A DNA stretch of 64,000 bases, taken from positions 1 to 64,000 of the forward strand of contig JAFSQL010000011.1 of assembly GCA_017446585.1 (NCBI GenBank). The letters run 5' to 3'. Each line of letters begins with the position of its first letter. Positions within the stretch are counted from its first letter, which is position 1. Both the position numbers and the translations under genes were made by a program. The DNA comes from Paludibacteraceae bacterium (GTDB taxonomy: Bacteria; Bacteroidota; Bacteroidia; Bacteroidales; Paludibacteraceae). The notes below the pieces were generated by a model. The model was not told the DNA's origin, made no database searches, and saw only the letters and a list, made by a program, of their open reading frames with translations. Below, piece after piece: positions 17,406-54,779 of the stretch.

Positions 17406-18179
17406 TTACTCGCAGTTTTTCTTCGCTTGTGAAATGAAAGCGTCAAGGGCTGTTTTGTCCTTTCGTGATATGATTTCCGCCAGTGTGTCCAGATTCTCGC
17501 GCAAGTGTTTGACTTGCTCCGTACTGTATGGGTTAAACAAGACTTCGCTGACAAGGAATGAGTCTTCGGCAAGGAATCCGTGCGCTATGTCCATGTGCTT
17601 CTTGAATGTCGTTCCGGGTGCTTCCTGTTTTTTTATACCCGAGGCGAATGCGAGCGTGGTGGCAAAGGGAACGGCAAGTGAATAGGCCGTGGTTTGGTCA
17701 TGCTCAACAAATGAGTAATCAAAGATGTGAAGATGCAACGACTTGTAGAAATCACGGAAAAACGCCTTGCCCTTGTCATCTCCCTCTTTGATGATAATGG
17801 CGTTCTGACCGGACAGATTGCCGAGATTGGCGAACGTGGGTCCGAACATAGGGTGAGTGGAGGTGAACCGAAATCCCGCTTCGGCATAAAACTCAGGCAG
17901 TCCTGATTTCACGGAGGCGATGTCCGATAAGATGCAGTCGTGGGGCAAGTAGCGCAGTACGTCCTTGAACGCTTGGATGGTGTACTTGATGGTCACGGCG
18001 TTAATGAGGAGTTGTGGGCGAAAGTAACCCACCTCCTCCAATTGCGACATGCGTTGTGTGTTGAATACGAAACGCAATCGTCGCGGGTCTTGGTCGTAGA
18101 GTGCGACCTCGTGATCCATGCAAAGGGCGTCCGCCAAAAAGGTGCCCATCTTGCCAGCTCCTAAAATCAATATACGCAT
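17406..18179 (-). CDS. tyrA: Prephenate dehydrogenase
   Basis: A 257-residue NAD(P)-dependent enzyme that converts prephenate to 4-hydroxyphenylpyruvate, the tyrosine branch. The N-terminal Rossmann motif is ILGAGKMGTFLADAL. SDIASVK and STHPMFGPTF are the family's active-site blocks (His in THPMFGP). The C-terminal helical domain completes it. There is no ACT or chorismate mutase domain, which fits the mutase being fused to the DAHP synthase next door. It is the last gene of the attenuated operon. Confidence 0.93.
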   Translation of the reverse strand: MRILILGAGKMGTFLADALCMDHEVALYDQDPRRLRFVFNTQRMSQLEEVGYFRPQLLINAVTIKYTIQAFKDVLRYLPHDCILSDIASVKSGLPEFYAEAGFRFTSTHPMFGPTFANLGNLSGQNAIIIKEGDDKGKAFFRDFYKSLHLHIFDYSFVEHDQTTAYSLAVPFATTLAFASGIKKQEAPGTTFKKHMDIAHGFLAEDSFLVSEVLFNPYSTEQVKHLRENLDTLAEIISRKDKTALDAFISQAKKNCE

Positions 18180-18199: not shown

Positions 18200-19279
18200 T
18201 TAGTTGCCGTTCATGATTTCCATTTGCAGGCGCACGCTCTCTTCGTGAATGGCCTCGACAAAGGCTTTTGCAAAATTGGAAGAGAGGCCGAGTTGTGCGG
18301 CAATCTTGGCACGGTCGTCAATGATGTCTTGATAACGTTTGGACTGGAGCACGGTGATGGCGTGTTCTTTCTTGTAGATACCAATCTCTTTGCTGATACG
18401 CATGCGTTTGGCGACGATTTCAAACAGTTGCTCGTCGAGTTCGTCAATTTGGTGGCGCAGGTCTTCGAGGTTCTCGGTCGATTGAACCGCCTTGCGAATC
18501 ACCAGACGATTGATTACGTTGTCAATGAGGTTGTCCGGTGTCAGTTGTTGAGAAGCGTCGCTCCAAGCGTCATCAGGGTTGCAGTGGCTTTCGATAATGA
18601 GACCGTCGAACTGGAGGTCCATGGCTTGCTGTGAAAGAGGGAAGATGAGGTCACGTCGTCCGCCGATGTGGCTTGGGTCGCAAATCATAGGGAGGTTAGG
18701 GAATCGGCGTTTGAGTTCGATTGGAATTTGCCATTGTGGCATGTTGCGATAAATCTTCTTGTCAAAAGTCGAGAAACCACGATGGATGATTCCAATGCGT
18801 TTCAGTCCTGCTTGGTTGATGCGTAGCAACGCTCCAATCCAAAGGTCAAGGTCTGGGTTGACAGGGTTTTTGACAAGAACAGGGATGTCAACACCTCTCA
18901 GAGCATCGGCGATGTCTTGGACGGCAAATGGGTTGGCGGTGGTGCGCGCTCCAATCCAAAGAACGTCAATACCGTATTTCAAGGCTTCGTAAACGTGTTG
19001 AGGAGTGGCGACTTCAGTGGCAGTGTACATGCCCGTTTCACGCTTGACACGACGCATCCATTTCAAACCTTCGGTGCCGATGCCTTCGAAAGATCCCGGT
19101 TTTGTGCGCGGCTTCCAGATGCCCGCACGGAAAATCTTCACTCCCTTGGCGGCAAGTTGGGTTGCGGTGTTCATTACTTGCTCTTCGGTTTCGGCAGAGC
19201 ATGGTCCTGCAATCAGGACGGGGCGTTTGTTGTTGTCAACGCCTTCGAGTGTGATGGGTTCAAGTTCTAAATTGTCCAT
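18200..19279 (-). CDS. Bifunctional DAHP synthase / chorismate mutase (type Ib AroA-like fused to AroQ)
   Basis: A 359-residue fusion. Residues 1 to about 260 form a KDOPS-like (type Ib) 3-deoxy-7-phosphoheptulonate synthase, with GPCSAETEEQV, FRAGIWKPRTKPGSFEG and CDPSHIGGRRDL; it joins phosphoenolpyruvate and erythrose-4-phosphate, the entry to the shikimate pathway. Residues about 265-355 form an AroQ helical chorismate mutase (LRHQIDELDEQLFEIVAKRM). In such fusions the mutase domain also serves as the sensor for prephenate feedback; that is family knowledge. It is the third gene of pheA-aminotransferase-aroG/Q-tyrA. Confidence 0.94.
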   Translation of the reverse strand: MDNLELEPITLEGVDNNKRPVLIAGPCSAETEEQVMNTATQLAAKGVKIFRAGIWKPRTKPGSFEGIGTEGLKWMRRVKRETGMYTATEVATPQHVYEALKYGIDVLWIGARTTANPFAVQDIADALRGVDIPVLVKNPVNPDLDLWIGALLRINQAGLKRIGIIHRGFSTFDKKIYRNMPQWQIPIELKRRFPNLPMICDPSHIGGRRDLIFPLSQQAMDLQFDGLIIESHCNPDDAWSDASQQLTPDNLIDNVINRLVIRKAVQSTENLEDLRHQIDELDEQLFEIVAKRMRISKEIGIYKKEHAITVLQSKRYQDIIDDRAKIAAQLGLSSNFAKAFVEAIHEESVRLQMEIMNGN

Positions 19280-19301: not shown

Positions 19302-20483
19302 TTATTTGTTCAGTTGTTTTATTCGTTGGAGGGCTTCCGCCAATTTATCGTCTTTGGCGCAAAGGGAGACGCGTACATAGCGGTTGCCGTTGGTGCCAAA
19401 GATGAAGCCCGGTGTAATGAACACATCTGCATCATAGAGCACGCGGTCTGCCAATTCGCCCGCATCTGCATAGGTGTCTGGAATTTTGCCCCAAAGGAAC
19501 ATACCTACTTGGTTGGGGTCGAAAGAGCAACCGAGTGTTGTCATGATTTGTTCAGCAAGTGCTCTGCGACGAGCATAAACATTCACGTTGAACTCTTCGT
19601 GCCATTCCTCCGTGTTTTGGGTTAAAGCCACTGCTGCCGCTTTTTGCATAGGGCGGAACATACCGCTGTCCATATTGCTCTTAACCTTAAGAATCCATTG
19701 GATGAATTGTGGTTGAGCGGCAACCATTGCCATACGCCATCCCGGCATATTGTGGCTTTTGGAGAGTGAGTTGAGTTCTATGCAGACATCTTTTGCTCCG
19801 GGTATTTGTAGGATGGAGAGATGTTTGCGATTAAGGATGAAACTATAAGGGTTGTCGTTAATGATTAGAATATTATGACGTTTGCCAAAGTCAACCAATT
19901 GTTGGAACAAATCAAGTGAGGCTGGGGCTCCTGTTGGCATATTTGGATAGTTGACCCACATGAGTTTCACGCCCGAGAGGTCCATTCGTTCCAGAGCGTC
20001 AAAGTCAGGTTGCCATCCATTGGATTCGAGCAGGTCGTAGTTGAGAACTTTCGCTTCCACAAGGTTGGAAACGGCGGCGTAAGTTGGGTAACCTGGGTTA
20101 GGAATGAGCACGCCGTCACCAGGATTGAGGAATGCGAGCGAGATGTGCATCACGCCCTCTTTAGAACCTATGAGAGGTTGTATTTCTGACTTTGGGTCAA
20201 GTGCTACGTCGTAATTCTTCTTGTAGAAGTCAGCAAAGGCTTGTCGCAATTCTGGTATTCCCACATAACTCTGGTAGCCGTGGGCGTCAGCCTTTTTTGC
20301 GTCGTCACAAAGTGCTTGGATGGTAGGGGCGGAAGGCATCATGTCGGGACTCCCGATTCCAAGGGAAATAATGTCTTTGCCTTGTCGGCGCAGAGCGTCA
20401 ATTTCTTTTAATTTCGTGGAGAAATAGTATTCCTTCACGCTCGAGAGCCGTCGTGCTGGCTGTATGTTGATATTGTCATTCAT
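19302..20483 (-). CDS. Class I/II PLP-dependent aminotransferase, probably aromatic
   Basis: A 393-residue fold-type I aminotransferase. Visible blocks are LGIGSPDMMPS, PNPGYPTYAA, NYPNMPTGAPAS, NDNPYSFIL and the PLP-lysine segment SLSKSHNMPGWR. It resembles LL-diaminopimelate aminotransferase-like proteins, but its place between pheA and the DAHP synthase/chorismate mutase argues for transamination of phenylpyruvate and 4-hydroxyphenylpyruvate, the last step to Phe and Tyr. Substrate is inferred from context. Confidence 0.85.
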   Translation of the reverse strand: MNDNINIQPARRLSSVKEYYFSTKLKEIDALRRQGKDIISLGIGSPDMMPSAPTIQALCDDAKKADAHGYQSYVGIPELRQAFADFYKKNYDVALDPKSEIQPLIGSKEGVMHISLAFLNPGDGVLIPNPGYPTYAAVSNLVEAKVLNYDLLESNGWQPDFDALERMDLSGVKLMWVNYPNMPTGAPASLDLFQQLVDFGKRHNILIINDNPYSFILNRKHLSILQIPGAKDVCIELNSLSKSHNMPGWRMAMVAAQPQFIQWILKVKSNMDSGMFRPMQKAAAVALTQNTEEWHEEFNVNVYARRRALAEQIMTTLGCSFDPNQVGMFLWGKIPDTYADAGELADRVLYDADVFITPGFIFGTNGNRYVRVSLCAKDDKLAEALQRIKQLNK

Positions 20484-20507: not shown

Positions 20508-21344
20508 TTAGTAGAGTTCGCATTGTTTGTATTCTCCGAGAATTTTAAGGTCGCGCGTAAGTGGTTTGATAGCCTCGACCGATTTGCAATATCGATCATA
20601 GTCAGAAAAGGAAACGTCAATATAAAAAAGATATTCCCATTCGCGCCCAATAATAGGAAGGGACTGAATCTTGGTGAGATTGACTCCGTAGAAAGAAATA
20701 ATGGCAAGCACTTGGCTTAGGCTTCCGGGATTGTGTTCGACGGCAAAAACAAGTGACGCTTTGTCTGGGCTTACCGTTGGGGTTTGTTCTTTCTGGTCGG
20801 AATGAGCAAGAATGAGGAACCGCGTGAAGTTGTGCTTGTTGGTTTCGATGCCTTCGGCAAGGATGTCTAAATCGTAGAGATTTGCTGCAAGTGAGCCACA
20901 TATGGCGGCAACTCCGTTCATCTGTTTCTTGGCGATGGTGCGTGCCGCATTGGCGGTATCATCAAATTCAACCACCTTCCAGTTCTTGTGCCCATCTAAA
21001 TATTTTCCGCATTGCATCAGGGCAATGGGGTGGGAGATTACTTCATTGATAGATTCGAGGGTCTCTCCGCGCAAGGCACAAAGATTTTGTTTGATTCGCA
21101 GTTTCTGTTCGCCAATGATGGTGAAACCGGAATCACGAATGAGTTGGTAGTTCTCGAGTAAGGAACCGGCAATCGTGTTTTCGATGGCGACGATGCCAAA
21201 TCGTGATTTGTCCTCAGCCAGACTATCGAAAAGTGCGTGAAAACTCTCGCAGGGTAGGATTTGTATATCCTCATCGTGGAAAAATTCACGTGCTGCCATG
21301 TCGTGGAAGCAGCCTCCGATTCCTTGTATTGCTATTGTTTTCAT
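20508..21344 (-). CDS. pheA: Prephenate dehydratase
   Basis: A 278-residue enzyme converting prephenate to phenylpyruvate. The catalytic domain has IQGIGGCFHDMAAREFF at the start, AIENTIAGSLLENYQLI and, near the end, a TRF block (NFTRFLIL). An ACT domain about 195-270 carries NPGSLSQVLAIISFYGVNLTKIQS for Phe feedback; the usual ESRP motif reads QSLP here, so feedback may be altered. The N-terminal block has GGCF where many homologues have GSFS or GSYS. It is the first gene of the operon and lies directly downstream of the leader peptide attenuator. Confidence 0.92.
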   Translation of the reverse strand: MKTIAIQGIGGCFHDMAAREFFHDEDIQILPCESFHALFDSLAEDKSRFGIVAIENTIAGSLLENYQLIRDSGFTIIGEQKLRIKQNLCALRGETLESINEVISHPIALMQCGKYLDGHKNWKVVEFDDTANAARTIAKKQMNGVAAICGSLAANLYDLDILAEGIETNKHNFTRFLILAHSDQKEQTPTVSPDKASLVFAVEHNPGSLSQVLAIISFYGVNLTKIQSLPIIGREWEYLFYIDVSFSDYDRYCKSVEAIKPLTRDLKILGEYKQCELY

Positions 21345-21352
21345 TTGGTTCT

Positions 21353-21388
21353 AAAAAAATCCCGCTTGAATGAGTTTCAAGCGGGATT
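21353..21388 (-). terminator. Attenuator terminator upstream of pheA (segments 3:4)
   Basis: A perfect 13-bp stem (minus strand: segment 3 at 21388-21376, segment 4 at 21370-21358) with a 5-base loop, followed by seven T (the last two stem bases plus 21357-21353). It lies between the promoter and pheA on the coding strand, so it can only act inside the leader RNA of this operon. Segment 3 can instead pair with segment 2 at 21436-21429. Confidence 0.9.
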
Positions 21389-21423
21389 GAATTGTCGTAT
21401 TGGATAGGTTTGTTACATTCACA

Positions 21424-21474
21424 TTGCGTCCCGCTCTTACTTGGTAAAGTAAAAGTAATAATAGAAAAACGCAA
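21424..21474 (-). promoter_or_regulatory. Protector and antiterminator segments of the phe/tyr attenuator
   Basis: Segment 1 (21474-21466, TTGCGTTTT, inside the Phe codon run) can pair with segment 2 (21432-21424, GGGACGCAA): six Watson-Crick pairs and three G-U. Segment 2 also holds GAGCGGGA (21436-21429), starting right after the leader stop codon. That part can pair with TCCCGCTT of the terminator's 5' arm (seven Watson-Crick pairs and one G-U). These are the 1:2 protector and 2:3 antiterminator of a classical ribosome-mediated attenuator. Confidence 0.82.
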
Positions 21475-21493
21475 AAAGCGAAGTTAACTCCAT
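21437..21493 (-). CDS. Phe/Tyr-rich leader peptide of the aromatic operon (18 residues)
   Basis: An 18-codon reading frame, MELTSLFAFFYYYFYFTK then TAA. Nine of residues 7-16 are Phe (five) or Tyr (four), with a single Ala between. It lies between a TACCTTTG promoter box and a terminator stem upstream of pheA, the textbook place for a leader peptide. Its job would be to make the ribosome stall when charged tRNA-Phe or tRNA-Tyr is scarce. An AGGAGG (21495-21500) precedes the ATG by one base, an unusual feature in a phylum that hardly uses Shine-Dalgarno pairing; the spacing is too short to be ideal. The product itself needs no function. Confidence 0.85.
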   Translation of the reverse strand: MELTSLFAFFYYYFYFTK

Positions 21494-21526
21494 GCCTCCT
21501 ATAATGTCTTAGTGTTAAATCTGCGG

Positions 21527-21534
21527 CAAAGGTA
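21527..21534 (-). promoter_or_regulatory. Promoter -7 box of the aromatic amino acid operon
   Basis: TACCTTTG on the minus strand fits TAnnTTTG. Transcription should start near 21520, giving about 27 bases before the leader peptide ATG. It places leader peptide and attenuator inside the transcript. Confidence 0.62.
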
Positions 21535-21622: not shown

Positions 21623-22678
21623 TCAACTTTTGAGAACTCCTTCAGGAAACTGCATAGTTAGACAGTGAAGAGAACCGTTTTGCCGAATGATGGGAACGCA
21701 GTCAATGGGAATGATGTCTCGTTCTGGAAAGGCGGTCTTCAAGGCTTGAATGGCTCTTTCGTCGCTCTCTGGTTGTTGGTAGGTCGGCAAAAGAATCGCT
21801 TTGTTGATTATGAGAAAATTCGCATAGGTAGCGGGCAAGGGTCTTCCATCTTCGATAATCGGATATGGAGAGGGAAGCGGAATCAGACGATATGGTTTGC
21901 CTTCAGTGGTTCGAAATGAACGTAATTCCTCTTCCATGAGACGAATGTCGAAGTAGTCTTCGTCATCCTCGTCGTTTGGAGGGGCGACATAGGCAATGGT
22001 GTCGGGTGAGCAGAAGCGAGCAAGGGTATCGATGTGTCCGTCGGTATCGTCGCCGTCAATGTTCCCATTGTTGAGCCAGAGGATTCTATGCGCCCCCAAA
22101 AGTTGTTGTAGTTGTTCGTCAATGGCGGAGGCGGAAAGCCACTCGTTTCTGTTCTCGCTGAGAAGACAACTGGATGTGACGAGAATGGTTCCACAGCCGT
22201 CGCTTTCAATGCTTCCGCCTTCAAGTACGAGGTTTTGGGCGTTGACGTATTTCACTCCATGAGCGAAAACTTCACGGTCATGAAATAGTCGTCGGGTGAT
22301 GAGGTTGTCCAAGTCGGACGCGAACTTCATGCCCCAGGCATTGAAGCGAAAGTCTAAAAGAGTGGGCTGACCGTCTAATAGGATGGTGATGGGACCGTGG
22401 TCACGTGCCCAAGTGTCGTTGGATGGCACTTGTGTGACAATCACGTTGTCAAGATTTGTTTGGGGCAAAAGTCGTGCGTAAACGTCGTCGGTGTTAGGGG
22501 CGACAATAAGCACTTTTTCCCTCATGGATATTTCGCAAGCAATGGTAGCAAAAACGGGAAGCACGTCTTGGAGCGTGTCGCACCAATCCGTGCCTTCGTG
22601 AGGCCAAGTGAGCATGACCCCGCTTTGTTGTTCCCATTCCGCTGGTAGTCGGATGGGGAGAGTAGATTCAATCGGCAT
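21623..22678 (-). CDS. aguA: Agmatine deiminase
   Basis: A 351-residue enzyme of the guanidino-group modifying family; it hydrolyses agmatine to N-carbamoylputrescine and ammonia on the plant-type route to putrescine. Family blocks are PAEWEQQSGVMLTWPHEGTDW, NDTWARDHGPI, LEGGSIESDG, GDDTDGHIDTLARF and the C-terminal NGSLHCLTMQFP with the catalytic Cys. Arginine decarboxylase and N-carbamoylputrescine amidase are not in the window. Its ATG overlaps the stop of the upstream 184-residue protein gene by one base. Confidence 0.93.
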   Translation of the reverse strand: MPIESTLPIRLPAEWEQQSGVMLTWPHEGTDWCDTLQDVLPVFATIACEISMREKVLIVAPNTDDVYARLLPQTNLDNVIVTQVPSNDTWARDHGPITILLDGQPTLLDFRFNAWGMKFASDLDNLITRRLFHDREVFAHGVKYVNAQNLVLEGGSIESDGCGTILVTSSCLLSENRNEWLSASAIDEQLQQLLGAHRILWLNNGNIDGDDTDGHIDTLARFCSPDTIAYVAPPNDEDDEDYFDIRLMEEELRSFRTTEGKPYRLIPLPSPYPIIEDGRPLPATYANFLIINKAILLPTYQQPESDERAIQALKTAFPERDIIPIDCVPIIRQNGSLHCLTMQFPEGVLKS

Positions 22679-52976: not shown

Positions 52977-54779
52977 TTAGTCAATGATTCGGACTCCACC
53001 CTTGTCCGCGCTTGACACGCTTTGCGCATAAGCGCGCAGGGCTTTGCTCACGACACGGTTGCGCTTGAGCGGTTGTTGTGGACGAGCGTTGAGTTCCTCG
53101 TCGGAGAGTTTCACGTTGATGGTGCGGTTAGGAATGTCAATGACGATGATGTCTCCGTCTTTGATTTTGCCAATGTTGCCACCAGCGGCAGCCTCCGGAG
53201 AGATGTGTCCGATGGAAAGTCCGGATGTGCCACCAGAGAAACGTCCGTCAGTAATCAAGGCGCATTCCTTGCCGAGGTGCATCGACTTGATGTAGGAGGT
53301 AGGGTAGAGCATCTCCTGCATGCCTGGACCACCTTTAGGCCCTTCGTGCGTGATGACGACGCAGTCACCACTTTGGATTTTGCCTCCGAGAATGCCGTCG
53401 CAAGCGTCTTCTTGGCTATCGAACACCTTGGCAGGACCTTCGAAATGCCAGATGCTTGGATCAACGCCAGCCGTCTTGACAACGCATCCGTCTTGTGCGA
53501 TGTTTCCGAAGAGAATGGCCAAACCACCGTCTTTGGTGTAGGCGTGTTCGATGTCACGGATGCAACCGTTTTGACGGTCGTCGTCCAATGTCTTCCATTG
53601 CGTGTCTTGGCTACCCATGACGGTAGAGAACTTGCCAGCAGGGGCACTATGGTAGATGCGTGAAGCCTCGGCATCGATATTTTCGGTCGTGATGTCGTAT
53701 TTCTTGATGGCGTCGCCAAGCGTCATGCCGTCAACACGAGATACGGACGTGTCCAAAAGATTGCCTTTGTTCAATTCACCGAGAATGCCGAGGATGCCAC
53801 CTGCTCGATTGCATTCTTGAACGCTGTATTTTTGCGTGTTTGGAGCCAATTTGCAAATGCAAGGAACCTTGCGGCTCAGAGCGTCAATGTCTTTCATCGT
53901 GAAGTTGACTCCGGCTTCTTGTGCTACGGCAAGGAGGTGAAGCACGGTGTTGGTGCTGCCACCCATGGCGATGTCAAGCGTCATGGCGTTGAGGAACGCC
54001 TGACGAGTGGCGATGGAGCGCGGAAGAACGCTGTCGTCTCCGTCTTGATAGTATTTCATCGCATTCTTGACGATGAGTCGCGCCGCGTCTTTGAAAAGTT
54101 GGATTCTGTTCTTGTGCGTGGCGAGAATGGTGCCATTACCAGGCAGAGCCAAGCCGATGGCTTCGGTAAGTGAGTTCATGGAGTTGGCGGTGAACATACC
54201 AGAGCAGCAACCACAACCAGGACATGCGCTTTGTTCAATTTGTGCGATGTCTTGGTCGCTGACTTCAGGGTCGGCACCTTTGATCATTGCTGTGATAAGA
54301 TCCGCATTTTCACCATTCCATTTGCCTGCTTCCATAGGTCCACCGCTGCAGAAAACGGCAGGGATGTTGAGTCGCATGGCTGCCATAAGCATGCCAGGTG
54401 TCACCTTATCGCAGTTGGATATGCAAATCATGGCGTCAGCCTTGTGGGCATTGACCATGTATTCAACACTATCAGCAATGATGTCGCGTGAAGGCAAGGA
54501 GTAGAGCATGCCATCGTGTCCCATGGCGATGCCGTCGTCGATGGCGATAGTGTTAAACTCAGCCGCATAGCATCCCATTGCCTCAATTTCCTTCTTAACG
54601 ATTTGTCCCACTTCGTGAAGGTGGGTATGTCCTGGCACAAATTGGGTGAAGGAGTTAACAATAGCAATGATGGGTTTGCCAAACTGTTCACGTTTCATTC
54701 CCGTCGCTACCCAGAGGGCGCGCGCCCCTGCCATACGGCGACCGTCGGTTGTGGCAGCACTACGAAGTGTATGTTTCAT
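52977..54779 (-). CDS. ilvD: Dihydroxy-acid dehydratase
   Basis: A 600-residue iron-sulfur enzyme that converts dihydroxyvalerates to 2-oxo acids in branched-chain synthesis. Cluster-binding cysteines appear in [10 protein letters not shown] and in [28 protein letters not shown] and [20 protein letters not shown] are signature blocks. It follows rfbD by 33 bases with no promoter or terminator visible between, so it seems to ride on the rfb transcript. ilvC and ilvE are not in the window. Confidence 0.96.

Follow-up and report, generated by a model that had tools for sequence, protein, structure and literature searches.

How might a Bacteroidota genome adjust a single operon that serves the synthesis of both phenylalanine and tyrosine? 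This question is raised by the region upstream of pheA in the stretch of DNA analyzed here (hereafter the window), namely 64,000 nucleotides of one contig of a Paludibacteraceae bacterium whose 1.2-Mb assembly is about 52% complete. The gene pheA, encoding prephenate dehydratase (20508-21344; PF00800, 2.7e-55), is followed by genes for a class I/II aminotransferase (19302-20483; PF00155, 4.6e-55), a DAHP synthase fused to chorismate mutase (18200-19279; PF00793 and PF01817) and a tyrA-like prephenate dehydrogenase (17406-18179), the last being assigned from its operon position and a PF02153 score of 26.2 bits that just misses the cut-off of 26.5. These genes, like all parts of the leader region described below, lie on the minus strand. 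Judged by gene content and spacing, the four genes from pheA on appear to constitute a Phe/Tyr operon and are presumably cotranscribed; according to the Pfam assignments, they serve Phe as well as Tyr synthesis. The gene upstream of the leader (21623-22678, minus strand) belongs to the Porphyromonas-type peptidyl-arginine deiminase family (PF04371, 4.9e-115).

Reading toward pheA, the region begins with a -7 promoter box of the Bacteroidota TAnnTTTG type, TACCTTTG (21527-21534), and continues with an ORF for an 18-residue leader peptide, MELTSLFAFFYYYFYFTK (21437-21493, with its ATG at 21493 and its TAA ending at 21437), in which residues 7-16 contain nine Phe/Tyr codons (five Phe and four Tyr). 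A terminator stem of 13 pairs with a 5-nt loop (21388-21358) comes next and runs into a T run, the whole spanning 21388-21353. Four segments can be assigned within this leader: segment 1, the putative protector (21466-21474), recognized by its partner in the minimum free energy (MFE) fold; segment 2, the 5' strand of the antiterminator, AAGTAAGAGCGGGAC (21428-21442), whose core GAGCGGGA (21436-21429) starts straight after the leader stop codon; segment 3, the terminator 5' arm (21376-21388), in which TCCCGCTT (21386-21379) is common to terminator and antiterminator; and segment 4, the terminator 3' arm with the T run (21353-21370). The last two are assigned from sequence and fold. As in classic attenuators, a short leader ORF dense in codons of the operon's own amino acids is separated from the first structural gene by an intrinsic terminator. 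The original prediction, made from the letters of the window, had named the box, the frame with its nine aromatic codons and the terminator before pheA; the box was found exactly there, the frame was correct to the base and the terminator was borne out. Its remark that the codon mix suits an operon making both amino acids agrees with the functions of the four genes.

To survey relatives, pheA upstream regions were gathered at four levels, from genus through family and order to phylum, and supplemented by titled genome records. A search that included the genus gave a PheA match in 101 genomes; the upstream regions of 42 of them, selected for score and for spread over genera, were used. The order level contributed 76 of 77 further genomes, with L088 amounting to one base at a contig end and the partial match G301 excluded, and the phylum level contributed 84 new regions from at least 340 matches, chosen by score and family spread among the matches listed. 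The best 80 of at least 573 matches were taken from the titled genome records. Removal of 11 exact duplicates reduced 223 regions to 212, and the counts of hairpins, duplexes, helices, promoter boxes and codon runs, as well as the codon-by-codon folding series, refer to this set and its subsets. A further removal, of 12 regions sharing a 100-mer and two with less than 200 nt upstream, left 256 regions, possibly still related to one another, and the folding counts over 157 loci refer to this stricter set.

A Phe/Tyr leader, defined as a startable small ORF with at least six Phe/Tyr within ten residues, precedes pheA in 199 of 219 Bacteroidia upstream regions after removal of near-duplicates, compared with 4 of 37 regions from other classes of the phylum. 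Leader-bearing regions account for 5/5 in the genus, 29/33 in the family, 66/75 in the order, 40/42 in the same-class group and 59/64 in the genome_contigs group, whose 64 regions were counted in the class by record titles and closeness. The leader is therefore a trait of the class Bacteroidia with a fairly sharp edge in this sample. Among the 20 Bacteroidia regions without it, four (L107 and L115-L117) belong to low-identity PheA matches with E-values of 1e-26 to 1e-38. In the other classes, where 33 of the 37 regions have no such leader, it was observed in L201, L214, L312 and L313. TTT, TTC, TAT and TAC are frequent in T-rich DNA, and T-rich intergenic DNA could yield Phe/Tyr codons by chance before pheA and an ordinary terminator; when all 256 regions were shuffled with dinucleotides preserved, however, only 14 of 1024 shuffles reached the leader score. 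Together with the difference between Bacteroidia and the other classes, this conservation refutes a chance origin, which we regard as next to impossible.

The aromatic runs contain on average 4.67 Phe and 3.52 Tyr codons. Of 120 distinct runs, 113 have two or more codons for each of the two amino acids, four have no Tyr and none is without Phe, and sensing of both Phe and Tyr is the most likely function of such a mixture. In some class-level leaders (L282, L287, L293, L304, L305 and others), a Trp codon was also observed in or beside the Phe/Tyr run, possibly as a third aromatic input.

Examination of the region 3' of the leader revealed a terminator-like hairpin in 173 of 191 cases, compared with 4 of 573 mononucleotide shuffles; the other 18 leaders have no detected terminator. 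In the window, the duplex of segment 2 with the terminator 5' arm reaches -15.8 kcal/mol. Across loci, the mean for cognate pairs is -17.8 kcal/mol, compared with -12.3 for non-cognate and -8.9 for shuffled pairs. In 164 of 173 loci, the cognate duplex outdid 90% or more of 30 shuffles; in only 109 of 173 did it outdo 90% of 30 non-cognate arms, a comparison including arms of close relatives and a motif, CCCGC, common to many arms. A contiguous-helix score of at least 7 was obtained for 75% of 159 cognate pairings, compared with 26% when the partner was non-cognate and 6% when it was shuffled.

Covariation was analyzed in 87 of the 157 loci, which come from the genus, family and order only and are related to one another; here, the antiterminator is 82% paired, compared with 70% (maximum 72%) when partners are shuffled, and the corresponding values for the terminator are 91% and 74% (maximum 77%). 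In the same alignment, the antiterminator has 101 double-change cells, compared with 21-35 when it is slid, a comparison in which the true register is favored because the pairs were defined from the window's own sequence. Thus, the antiterminator overlaps the terminator 5' arm, as in classic attenuators, and covaries with it. The original prediction had paired 21436-21429 with this arm, and both the energy of the duplex and the covariation in relatives uphold that assignment.

These results bear on a different role for the small ORF, namely control of pheA through coupled translation or reinitiation (translational attenuation), with a hairpin that is no more than leaky or involved in processing. 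Passages of PMC4833913 describe a peak of leader-gene distances at 11-14 bp in Bacteroidetes and propose reinitiation, and attenuation of transcription would presuppose that transcription and translation are coupled in this organism. The leader stop codon of the window, however, lies 92 nt before pheA, with the 13-bp terminator and its T run in between; a hairpin of this kind follows most leaders and few shuffles, and segment 2 covaries with the terminator arm. We consider translation coupling very unlikely as the explanation, and return to attenuation of transcription.

Across loci, the antiterminator helix starts at a median of 11-12 nt past the final aromatic codon, roughly the distance to a ribosome's edge; in the 119 loci that have a helix score of at least 7, the median is 12 nt and the 5-95% range 8-18 nt. 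The 159 loci contain 114 distinct helix sequences, some of them short and probably spurious. A near-constant position combined with a variable sequence would be expected if the ribosome front edge sets the position of the helix. Relative to segment 2, the leader stop codon is upstream in 19 of 157 loci, overlapping in 68 and downstream in 70.

A sensor other than the ribosome, i.e., an RNA-binding protein, a metabolite riboswitch or a T-box, might also control the terminator, with the aromatic ORF being incidental; the leader region is structured (z -3.82), and sensors of these kinds serve amino-acid operons elsewhere. Nevertheless, no Rfam family, riboswitches and T-boxes included, was found at gathering score in the window leader or in ten relatives, and no riboswitch or T-box was listed for the window at E up to 10. 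The best sub-threshold Rfam match of the window leader is ncr1575 (25.8 bits vs a cut-off of 60), and Trp_leader (RF00513) scores 13.1 bits in the window vs a gathering score of 41. Moreover, the Phe/Tyr run is kept among relatives while the peptide tail and the helix sequences vary, and the antiterminator lies at a ribosome-scale distance from the last Phe/Tyr codon, which argues against such a sensor and makes it extremely improbable.

We also examined whether the position of a ribosome would decide between the two structures. Nascent RNA was folded as far as the loop of the terminator, and the ribosome was given an assumed footprint that extends 12 nt past the A-site codon. In up to 164 loci, the mean upstream pairing of the terminator 5' arm is 0.77-0.80 for stalls 1-10 codons before the last aromatic codon and 0.73 at that codon, and then falls to 0.56, 0.42 and 0.33 at one, two and three codons past it. 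In the stricter set of 157 loci, it decreases from 0.80 for a ribosome stalled two codons before the run end to 0.33 three codons past, whereas spacer shuffles give means of 0.44 and 0.41, i.e., no comparable step. A drop of more than 0.3 occurs in 121 of 157 loci, compared with 35 of 471 single spacer shuffles, the control being counted per single shuffle in view of the fact that averaging three shuffles per locus (1/164) flatters it. For the window, the switch is from 0.63 to 0.02: as long as the stall is no further than the penultimate aromatic codon, upstream pairing stays at 0.58-0.68, whereas a stall at the last one gives 0.01 and a ribosome at the stop codon 0.02. The exact switch codon is approximate, as equilibrium folding ignores kinetics and pausing. 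In this model, a ribosome at the last Phe codon of the window already masks segment 2, so that antitermination would be limited to stalls at the first eight aromatic codons.

With the ribosome at the stop codon, the mean antitermination probability is 0.40, a value that a pure masking model does not fully account for, and the probability is below 0.3 in only 56 of 157 loci. In silico, then, a stalled ribosome frees the antiterminator and a ribosome past the codons masks it, with masking at the stop codon partial on average. Of the E. coli-type geometry that had been proposed for the window, the footprint-dependent switch was reproduced by folding, and so was, for the window itself, the covering of segment 2 at the stop codon.

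Without a ribosome, the window leader folds with an MFE of -44.9 kcal/mol, and none of 200 shuffles folds as well or better. In the MFE fold, 21474-21466 are paired with 21432-21424, and the probability that the 5' arm pairs upstream is only 0.07, i.e., the 1:2 hairpin is strong. This 1:2 pairing, also part of the original prediction, holds for the window but does not appear to be general: the free-state antiterminator probability is below 0.3 in only 22 of 157 loci, the window included, and above 0.6 in 107 of 157, and an E. coli-like protector was not borne out as a general part. According to these models, the common core appears to be whether or not the ribosome masks segment 2, with the protector as an optional extra.

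The regions were further searched for signals of transcription and translation. In 127 of 159 loci, the 120 nt that precede the leader start contain the motif TAnnTTTG, the -7 box consensus of Bacteroidota, compared with 10 loci expected from shuffles, and the box starts at a median of 33 nt before the leader start codon. Within the window, TAnnTTTGC is over-represented (28 vs 8.9 expected). Transcription of the operon probably starts near 21520, and the leader ORF is probably translated. Among 138 leaders started by ATG, with the ATGs picked mechanically, A is found at -3 in 59% and Shine-Dalgarno-like motifs in four. An AGGAGG (21495-21500, minus strand) is located 1 nt before the leader ATG of the window; in other members of the genus, AGGAGG abuts the leader ATG in L004 and L005, and GAGG does so in L003. 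A leader start driven by Shine-Dalgarno pairing was considered and rejected, on account of the AGGAGG of the window being too close to the ATG and of the rarity of such motifs among the 138 leaders.

Taken together, the pheA leader region is very probably a ribosome-mediated attenuator of transcription, with charged tRNA-Phe and tRNA-Tyr as the signals sensed and a predicted response to their scarcity under starvation. The computed support covers its parts, conservation, covariation, spacing and footprint-dependent switch. In the proposed mechanism, transcription would begin near 21520 and a ribosome would start the leader peptide. When Phe- or Tyr-tRNA is scarce, the ribosome would stall within codons 7-16, with its front edge just short of segment 2, whose core begins at 21436. 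Segment 2 would remain exposed and could pair with the 5' arm of the terminator (21386-21379) while the 3' arm is still to be transcribed; with the antiterminator formed, RNA polymerase would continue through pheA and the three genes that follow it. When both tRNAs are plentiful, the ribosome would reach the stop codon and cover segment 2, and the terminator would form. In the naked RNA of the window, unlike most relatives examined, the 1:2 hairpin sequesters segment 2, and an untranslated leader should terminate as well. The attenuator reading of the original prediction is thereby supported in relatives, in which leader, terminator and antiterminator are conserved, the antiterminator is cognate-specific and covarying, and the ribosome-scale spacing and footprint switch are retained; the refuting condition named with that prediction, a lack of conserved leader codons or stems among close relatives, was examined and did not hold.

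Amino-acid attenuation is a textbook mechanism, best known from Proteobacteria, and it requires a ribosome close behind RNA polymerase. The presence of a Phe/Tyr attenuator in most sampled Bacteroidia, mostly with leaders that have no Shine-Dalgarno motif, suggests such coupling there and offers natural reporters for testing it. It is also a likely explanation for the regulation of Phe/Tyr operons in an abundant gut group, with one leader for both end products. A broader view, which in our judgment is evenly balanced between true and false, is that of a class-wide two-amino-acid attenuator in Bacteroidia that is switched by the ribosome alone: with no protector hairpin in most members, leader RNA free of ribosomes would be expected to antiterminate, and termination would depend on a ribosome that reaches segment 2 and masks it in time. 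If so, this switch and the leader starts mostly devoid of Shine-Dalgarno motifs would point to tight coupling of transcription and translation in Bacteroidia, and the his, ilv and trp leaders would belong to a single regulon of like kind.

Leaders were also sought before other amino-acid operons. His-rich leaders (at least four His in eight residues) precede hisG in 11 of 26 relatives (L230-L255), compared with 1 of 520 shuffles, and leaders rich in Ile, Leu and Val (at least seven in eight residues) precede ilvD in 10 of 23 relatives (L256-L278), compared with 0 of 460 shuffles. In the window's genus, all six ilvD regions stayed below the latter threshold, that of the window itself (52989-54725, minus strand) among them. 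For Trp, Rfam contains the family RF01692 (Bacteroid-trp), the 'Bacteroidete tryptophan peptide leader RNA', given as a candidate cis-regulatory motif in passages of PMC2864571. It was found in 5 of 41 relatives, above the cut-off in two, and at gathering score it was absent from the window and, under strict filters, from the half-complete genome G000. Its match in L225 (1521-1577), from a genome of the same bacterial family, contains the leader MNSILTVNKFWWWHLRIS with three consecutive Trp codons and would be a Trp attenuator by its sequence.

A 2010 paper by Lopatovskaya et al. on attenuation across bacteria may list Bacteroidetes cases. Closer to the present locus is a study of Flavobacterium psychrophilum that we take to be that of Guerin et al. 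(2021). This study (PMC9723704) reports 'strong clues' for attenuation by leader peptides upstream of amino-acid operons and, separately, describes a structured pheA 5' element without an Rfam match that is conserved in other genera of Flavobacteriaceae. We infer that this is the same element as the one described here; the passages of PMC9723704 contain neither a mechanism for pheA nor a Phe/Tyr leader sequence, and Bacteroidales do not figure in them. In Bacteroides thetaiotaomicron, long 5' UTRs hold small ORFs reminiscent of attenuation peptides (passages of PMC7366714); the example is the UTR of a hypothetical protein, and 'phenylalanine' has no occurrence in the main text. Passages of PMC8305728, on his genes in Bacteroidota, mention attenuation for enterobacteria only. 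Phenylalanine attenuators in other species are named in a portion of PMC1262725, and a portion of PMC1183508 serves as reference for that of E. coli pheL-pheA. Among the open-access papers listed, with subscription literature mostly outside the scope, we recognized no description of a Phe/Tyr leader for pheA in Bacteroidales. The original remark that this operon is not known to have a described case in the phylum needs qualification, in that attenuation of this kind is already on record there (RF01692 and, from the passages of PMC9723704, clues to leader-peptide attenuation and a structured pheA 5' element in Flavobacteriaceae). The attenuator type is known in the phylum and was partly anticipated in one flavobacterial family; its conservation across a class and its switch geometry are shown here by computation.

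Compared with known systems, Bacteroid-trp shares with the pheA leader the phylum and the type of mechanism, and concerns another amino acid, Trp. The E. coli pheL-pheA attenuator likewise has leader codons for the operon's amino acid, an overlapping antiterminator and terminator, and a segment 2 beside the leader stop codon. In contrast to it, Phe and Tyr codons occur together in the runs described here, Shine-Dalgarno-like motifs are confined to 4 of 138 leaders started by ATG, and among the Rfam matches of the window leader with E up to 10 there is no phenylalanine leader. The window fits the three-state scheme of E. coli, whereas most relatives examined have no protector-like free state, and their naked RNA already favors the antiterminator.
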